Shown piece after piece: positions 42,244 to 43,318 of a DNA stretch of 64,000 nucleotides (its first letter is position 1; the number at the start of each line of letters is the position of its first letter). The notes under the pieces are model-generated. The model was not told the origin of the DNA. It did not search any database and saw only the letters and a list, made by a program, of their open reading frames with translations. This DNA is from Oscillospiraceae bacterium (lineage in GTDB: Bacteria > Bacillota > Clostridia > Oscillospirales > Oscillospiraceae): the NCBI GenBank assembly GCA_015067665.1, contig SVLZ01000001.1, forward strand, positions 1-64,000, in the 5' to 3' direction. Both the position numbers and the translations under genes were made by a program.

Positions 42244-42681
42244 TCAGCTTTCTTCACTTCCATATAGTGCAATGGTAAACTGCCGCAGCGCCTTATCCCG
42301 TTTGCGGTAAACGGTAGAGGTTTCCGCACCCAATTCCGTACAAAGCCGCTCCACGCTCCCCTTCTCCGGATGAATGTAAAACCGCTGCAACACCAGTCTT
42401 TCCTCCCGATTCAGTCCGCTCAGGGCCCGCTCCATACACTCCAGCCAGCGCTCCGTCTGCTGCAGGCGCCACATCAGCTCCTGCCGGCTCATCATATTGT
42501 CAAGAAGCCGCTCCTCCTGCCGGTTTCCGCCGGACAGCACCGCGCAGTCTTCTGCCCGTCCGCTGCGAATAGCCACCGACAGCTCCTCCAGTCTACGAAT
42601 TTCCAACGGAATATTCTTTGCAGCCAAAAGCATATTTTCGTATTTTCGCAGTCTCTCCATTGCCTCATTTTTCCAGTTCAT
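42244..42681 (-). CDS. Phage-type sigma-70 region-4-like regulator (DUF1492/RinA-like)
   Basis: 145 residues. A helical N-terminus (LRKYENMLLAAKNIPLEIRRLEELS) is followed by a sigma region-4-type HTH: LSGLNREERLVLQRFYIHPEKGSVERLCTELGAETSTVYRKRDKALRQF. This architecture is common in phage late-gene activators and in the DUF1492 family of Clostridia and streptococcal prophages. It is the last gene of a three-gene overlapping set; start overlaps the preceding gene by 17 bases. No capsid or packaging genes are near, so it is either a prophage relic or a domesticated regulator. Confidence 0.75.
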   Translation of the reverse strand: MNWKNEAMERLRKYENMLLAAKNIPLEIRRLEELSVAIRSGRAEDCAVLSGGNRQEERLLDNMMSRQELMWRLQQTERWLECMERALSGLNREERLVLQRFYIHPEKGSVERLCTELGAETSTVYRKRDKALRQFTIALYGSEES

Positions 42682-43009
42682 ACATATTCTCCTTTCGTAC
42701 GCACTCCCAATTTTTCTTTGCCCGGCAAGGGGTCACACATAGATCCCGTGGACTATGGCACCCATCGCAGGGATCCTTTTGACAGTAAGCCCGCAGCTGA
42801 TCCGGATGGAGGTAATAATGTCCACCCACCGATATACCCATAGGCTTCGCATCTGCACTGTCCATCTGCGCCCGGGGATAGGCGCGAATACGCCCCCAGC
42901 TTTCCGAAAACCACGCTTGCCATAGGGCACATTGCGCATTATTACAATTCCTCGCATCCCGCACCCGCGTGCAGCCGCGGCACGGCTTCGGCATCTCCTT
43001 CCTTTTCAT
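42665..43009 (-). CDS. Small cysteine-rich (zinc-finger-like) phage-type protein
   Basis: 114 residues from ATG 43009, with AGGTGG seven bases upstream. Cys pairs are spread along the chain: CRGCTRV, CNNAQC, YCQKDPCDGCH, CVTPC and WEC, suggesting one or more metal sites. I do not recognise the family. It overlaps the upstream small gene by 68 bases and the DUF1492-like gene by 17 bases, dense packing typical of phage early regions. Confidence 0.65.
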   Translation of the reverse strand: MKRKEMPKPCRGCTRVRDARNCNNAQCALWQAWFSESWGRIRAYPRAQMDSADAKPMGISVGGHYYLHPDQLRAYCQKDPCDGCHSPRDLCVTPCRAKKNWECVRKENMYELEK

Positions 43010-43187
43010 AGCCGCCCCACCTTTCGCACATTCTGCACAGCTTGCAGTCCTGTCCGTACAGCTCCATTCCACAGCAAATGCACCACCCAAAGGGCACCGC
43101 CGCCTGCAGATCCTCCCCTGCCCTGTAAGCTGTCATACGTACCGGTCTGCGTCTTTCTGTTCGTAAGTAAATAACATTTCCCCACAC
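42942..43187 (-). CDS. Small zinc-ribbon-like protein, GTG start
   Basis: 81 residues. The track ORF starts in the promoter; the better start is GTG 43187, seven bases after AGGAGG. The core CICCGMELYGQDCKLCRMCE contains four closely spaced Cys pairs like a zinc ribbon. Short, charged, no signal peptide. Function unknown; it may be a DNA- or RNA-binding regulator. First gene of the trio controlled by the GTACTT promoter. Confidence 0.6.
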   Translation of the reverse strand: MWGNVIYLRTERRRPVRMTAYRAGEDLQAAVPFGWCICCGMELYGQDCKLCRMCERWGGYEKEGDAEAVPRLHAGAGCEEL

Positions 43188-43207
43188 AGATACGCCTCCT
43201 TTAGTTT

Positions 43208-43318
43208 GTACTTTATCAAGTACTTTCTTTGTGTGTATCCGTATAATAGTACTTGTTCGTGTACTTGTCAATAGGCAATTCGCACTTTTGTTCGTTTTTG
43301 TGTACTTGCACAAGTACA
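43208..43318 (-). promoter_or_regulatory. Promoter with repeated GTACTT/AAGTAC operators
   Basis: Minus strand TTGACA (43266-43271), 17 bases, TATTAT (43243-43248). Operator-like half-sites: palindrome gtactttatcaagtac (43208-43223), gtacttg at 43249 and 43261 (direct, 12 bases apart, between -35 and -10), and palindrome tgtacttgcacaagtaca (43301-43318). Such an arrangement would allow cooperative repression of the trio. Confidence 0.75.

Follow-up and report, generated by a model that had tools for sequence, protein, structure and literature searches.

Three overlapping genes on the minus strand, P1, P2 and P3 (positions 42244-43318 of the 64-kb window, by which we mean the whole stretch of DNA analysed), probably form the middle tier of a three-locus, trans-acting cascade that would control a DNA-packaging system domesticated from a phage; such a system is most likely a gene transfer agent (GTA). 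We put the probability of this reading at roughly 70%. In the proposed first tier, an XRE repressor encoded on contig C8 would bind GTACTTG-WW-CAAGTAC operators in two promoters, its own and that of the trio, and an ImmA-type protease would inactivate the repressor so that the trio is made. In the second tier, P3 would recognise GGGAA direct repeats that overlie the -35 region, recruit RNA polymerase in trans and so make up for the -35 contact that the late promoter lacks. The outputs of the third tier would be a TerS-to-endolysin operon on contig C43 and small DUF6291 genes, joined in some species by dnaA. The particles would package random host DNA, leave the cells by lysis and transfer host genes between cells. 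We infer the XRE contact from presumed autoregulation and the P3 contact from the position of the motif.

The trio and its promoter

P1 (42942..43187, minus strand; 81 aa) is rich in Cys and begins with a GTG start codon after AAAGGAGG, and P2 (42665..43009, minus strand; 114 aa) is likewise Cys-rich; profile searches gave no convincing family match for either protein. Many relatives of P2 align over its first ~50 residues only, and a direct P2 search of two contig collections returned no relatives because the protein diverges too fast. P3 (42244..42681, minus strand; 145 aa) is a late-activator-like protein of the ArpU/RinA/DUF1492 type with a sigma-70 region 4 helix-turn-helix (HTH). It matched PHROG transcription-regulation families (E 3.5e-14), and its matches to the ArpU, RinA and sigma-70 region 4 models lay under the curated cut-offs. 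The score against the ArpU family TIGR01637 was 27.3 bits for a cut-off of 43.1; P3 is predicted to work like ArpU, yet we do not file it as a member of that family. The AF2 model of P3 (pLDDT 88.6) resembled predicted phage sigma region 4 and transcriptional-activator folds in BFVD with TM scores up to 0.82, while searches of the PDB by sequence and by fold found no convincing or significant solved structure. The C-terminal HTH, the PHROG matches and the modelled fold thus place P3 among phage late regulators with a sigma-region-4-like fold. Like the ArpU/RinA regulators, P3 is small, carries its HTH at the C-terminus and, in related prophages, is placed directly upstream of TerS; unlike them, the P3 of the trio is encoded at an unlinked chromosomal locus. 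The overlapping frames and the P3 matches bear out an earlier sequence-only reading, which had described two cysteine-rich genes and a sigma region-4-like gene.

The trio promoter (TTGACA-17-TATTAT; 43243..43271, minus strand) carries three 16-bp operators of the general form GTACnn-N4-nnGTAC. O1 (GTACTTGTGCAAGTAC; 43302..43317, minus strand) lies upstream of the -35 element, O2 (GTACACGAACAAGTAC; 43249..43264, minus strand) fills the spacer between -35 and -10, and O3 (GTACTTGATAAAGTAC; 43208..43223, minus strand) lies in the leader. The two palindromes that had been noted on either side of the promoter correspond to O1 and O3 and are both perfect GTACTT-N4-AAGTAC sites. The two GTACTTG sites reported in the spacer are indeed there, but instead of direct sites they are better read as a third, imperfect operator, O2. 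The pattern GTACN8GTAC occurs four times in the 64-kb window, and three of these occurrences fall inside 110 bp at the trio promoter.

The repressor-protease locus

Throughout the genome from which the window comes (G000, 85% complete), we found one other promoter with the layout of the trio promoter. This promoter, TTGACAAGTACGTGTTCAAGTACTATTAT, is found on contig C8, where it immediately precedes an XRE gene and has one more operator downstream. The locus comprises a CI/XRE repressor gene (HTH_26 match, E 8.9e-10) followed by a gene for an ImmA/IrrE-like metallopeptidase, which contains an HELGH motif and matches Peptidase_M78 with E 9e-4, just under the curated cut-off. An XRE HTH gene followed by a gene for an ImmA/IrrE-type HExxH metallopeptidase is the arrangement of an ImmR/ImmA pair. 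The sequence-only reading had left open whether LexA or a CI-like protein acts at the GTACTT sites; judged by the shared promoter layout, the repressor of the trio is most likely the CI/XRE protein paired with the ImmA-type protease.

The promoter pattern with an operator in the spacer was present in 29 of 136 Faecousia genomes (Oscillospiraceae), while control matches numbered 0. Nearly all the Faecousia sites examined precede a trio or an XRE gene, mostly of an XRE-ImmA pair; outside Faecousia, the pattern occurs mostly at XRE genes of phages and their relatives, plus some unrelated matches. All 24 orphan trios (in 23 of the 136 genomes) have two or three operators, as against none of seven prophage-type P3 genes. 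The operator array is therefore conserved in related genomes. Chromosomal trios occupy several recurrent spots outside prophages, for example beside rpe, so that the trio is not confined to decaying prophages, the circumstance that would have told against a domesticated control circuit. That suggestion, made from the sequence alone, gains support from these positions and from the purifying selection described below.

The packaging operon

The link between the operators and packaging genes is most direct in two genomes, G117 and G048, and in two IMG/VR contigs, where the same repressor promoter region drives a P1-like gene and then TerS, TerL, portal, scaffold and capsid genes. In both of these genomes, TerS is directly under a GTAC promoter that faces XRE-ImmA. 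P3 and the P3 motif were both absent from these two assemblies (65-68% complete). They thus serve as an internal control, in which the structural operon stands directly under the repressor promoter and both P3 and its motif are missing.

Relatives of this type of TerL were found in 107 of the 136 Faecousia genomes, usually as a single copy. The relative in G000 lies on contig C43 (67% identity), and no second copy was seen in that genome. It belongs to a siphovirus-like module of ~15 kb that encodes TerS, TerL, portal, scaffold, major head protein, head-tail connectors, tail proteins, a 370-aa tape measure, holin and endolysin. The module is flanked by host genes (GDSL lipase, phosphoglucomutase, LemA, GtrA, LUD, aminotransferase and glutamine synthetase), and no integrase or replication genes were found around it. 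The trio, the repressor locus and the structural operon are on separate contigs and, in several genomes, lie deep within long host contigs. Two marks of a GTA are thus seen: tailed-phage structural and packaging genes reside in a host chromosome, and the system consists of unlinked loci with host flanks and without integrase or replication genes for self-propagation. Close relatives of the C43-type capsid protein were rare outside Faecousia, occurring in 4 of 295 genomes sampled from the order.

A capsid gene of 67% identity was also seen in MT835595.1 (L433, 325-16759), a 26-kb faecal scaffold labelled 'Bacteriophage sp.', where a holin and a lysis-like gene are followed by host-like genes (for example an aminotransferase and a glmS-like gene); although filed as a phage, this scaffold may represent a further packaging module of a chromosome. 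Separately, most other Faecousia genomes carry a second, short operon of TerS, TerL, portal, protease-like and capsid genes, usually in single copy (L278, 7454-13580, in G126; L261 in G011; L262 in G017), with a TerL ~52% identical to that of the first kind. The copy in G126 is close to rpsB and tsf, with no tail genes behind it. No P3 motif was found at this second type of operon in the three genomes examined, and we treat it as a separate system. It is perhaps another domesticated packaging system, closer in layout to operon I of the Faecalibacterium agent FpGTA.

The predicted P3 promoter and its targets

Two copies of GGGAAAAAAATGGGAAGATTTTTT...TGATATAAT lie upstream of TerS on C43. This element consists of GGGAA direct repeats 11 bp apart with a -10 element at a fixed spacing, and it recurs upstream of TerS in many other species; in prophage L032 it sits between P3 and TerS. 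On account of these positions, we propose the element as the binding site of P3. G000 contains five elements, two at TerS and one before each of three DUF6291-type genes (L281, 1582-1860; L282, 1569-1823; L321, motif on the minus strand), the third of which was assigned from sequence resemblance alone. The region upstream of TerS in G000 (L260, 1200-2120) contains repeated intergenic elements, with the late promoter duplicated, and G001 and G099 likewise carry two copies of this promoter. A P3-type promoter precedes the scaffold and capsid genes in G028 (L324, contig C6), where no TerL was detected; the structural operon of G028 may be split further.

The element was also found upstream of dnaA in five genomes (G113, G137, G050, G120 and G028; loci L288, L290, L291, L292 and L338), at 256-271 nt from the dnaA start in the three of the five that were measured. 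These elements scored 44-52, against about 0.5 or less for shuffled sequences where the shuffles were run. Since the site is present in only five genomes and none was detected at dnaA in G000, we do not claim this link for the species of the window. A bolder reading, to which we would give rather less than even odds, is a Clostridia GTA run by a dispersed phage-type lysis-lysogeny switch whose late activator has also captured dnaA in some species. If it is true, induction would both build packaging particles and raise the supply of host DNA for packaging.

These targets bear on what the particle might be for. A domesticated particle with another job, such as a bacteriocin-like particle or a defence device, would share the set of head, tail, holin and endolysin genes and the lysis, and the control of Listeria monocins involves a CI-like repressor and an ImmA-type protease (PMC6872733). 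A tailocin, however, would not need the terminase, portal and capsid genes, which are under purifying selection here, and the P3-type promoter at dnaA in five species points to DNA supply. We therefore regard a function other than gene transfer as unlikely. The trio might instead act in trans as a helper or trigger for active prophages and not on the chromosomal packaging operon, as a prophage of G001 has the same GGGAA-repeat promoter at its TerS and cross-talk between prophages through a shared protease is known (PMC6872733). Yet the motif in G000 is found only at the chromosomal operon and the three small genes, and no second C43-type TerL was seen there; we regard such a helper role as quite improbable.

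Co-occurrence, selection and inheritance

With relatedness of the genomes ignored, the trio co-occurred with XRE-ImmA (p=9e-16) and with TerL (p=9e-14), and also with the P3 motif as located by an unbiased scan (p=2e-11, again with relatedness ignored). The structural operon was without a detected trio in 10 of 30 genomes and the trio without the operon in 3, many of the assemblies being incomplete. The dN/dS values of the trio, the repressor locus and the structural operon were mostly 0.01-0.2, which indicates purifying selection. In close species pairs, the dS values of TerL, portal, capsid, P3, XRE and ImmA were similar to that of DnaA, and the nearest neighbours of TerL and DnaA largely agreed. 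Over all genomes, the TerL and DnaA distances gave a Mantel r of 0.40 and a Spearman coefficient of -0.18, the agreement lying within close groups; the support for host-like inheritance thus comes from near neighbours and matched dS and not from a global correlation. Purifying selection and vertical transmission along with the host, together a further mark of a GTA, are seen in this sense.

The same data weigh against scattered, decaying prophage pieces with no joint function. Every part is phage-derived, and P3-TerS-TerL and XRE-ImmA are found together in real Faecousia prophages. Decay, however, is hard to reconcile with open frames and low dN/dS on all parts over species-level divergence, with divergence near that of a host gene, or with the strict operator conservation and the co-occurrence, and we give it very little probability. 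Some single lineages may have acquired the system through a recent new round of domestication of related prophages. A LexA-controlled stress unit unrelated to packaging, which is near a second suggestion of the sequence-only reading and would suit a strong, tightly operated promoter, is scarcely credible, as the operator layout is common to the XRE-ImmA promoter only and the trio co-occurs with phage packaging genes.

Comparison with known systems

In the literature covered, which took in few subscription papers and preprints, we found no account of the Faecousia system or of this regulatory design. The GTA activation cascades found there are those of Alphaproteobacteria, and the packaging cascade proposed here would be a complete one from Clostridia of the gut. 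Its operators are exactly defined, its activator site is predicted and its targets are named, which opens the regulation of gene transfer in these anaerobes to experiment, in a family where packaged host DNA has lately been seen in human stool. It also shows a prophage split into what appears to be a host-run circuit with its regulatory wiring retained; if the dnaA link holds, a phage activator would be wired to chromosome replication.

The FpGTA of Faecalibacterium prausnitzii was reported in January 2026, and particles with ~9-kb DNA were shown (PMC12946183). Like the Faecousia system, FpGTA comprises packaging genes of phage origin that are conserved within one genus, a genus of the same order, together with lysis genes and without replication genes. 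It is described as probably podovirus-like and has two operons (10.5 and 5.5 kb), which sets it apart from the Faecousia system with its single siphovirus-like operon and tape measure; no regulator for FpGTA was seen in the text covered (PMC12946183).

The ImmR/ImmA pair of ICEBs1 and the cI-like/MpaR pair of the Listeria monocin consist of an HTH repressor gene followed by a gene for an ImmA/IrrE-type metalloprotease and are autoregulated, and the Listeria protease also acts in trans on other phage elements (PMC6872733). The C8 locus has the same order of a repressor gene and an ImmA/IrrE-type gene. In contrast to these pairs, the repressor locus and its predicted outputs are dispersed over the chromosome in Faecousia, and head and packaging genes are among these outputs.

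The CcGTA of Caulobacter follows the same logic: RogA represses gafYZ, the cluster and ~18 accessory promoters are activated by GafY and GafZ, and GafY makes contact with sigma-70 at promoters whose -35 element is degenerate (PMC11150451). In Caulobacter, as predicted for Faecousia, the repressor targets the core promoter from which an activator unit is expressed, and this unit turns on a structural cluster located elsewhere along with accessory genes. Compared by description, the parts differ as far as they are known, being an XRE repressor with an ImmA-type protease and P3 in the present case. Unlike CcGTA, the Faecousia system resides in a Gram-positive host and has dnaA and DUF6291 genes among its predicted targets.
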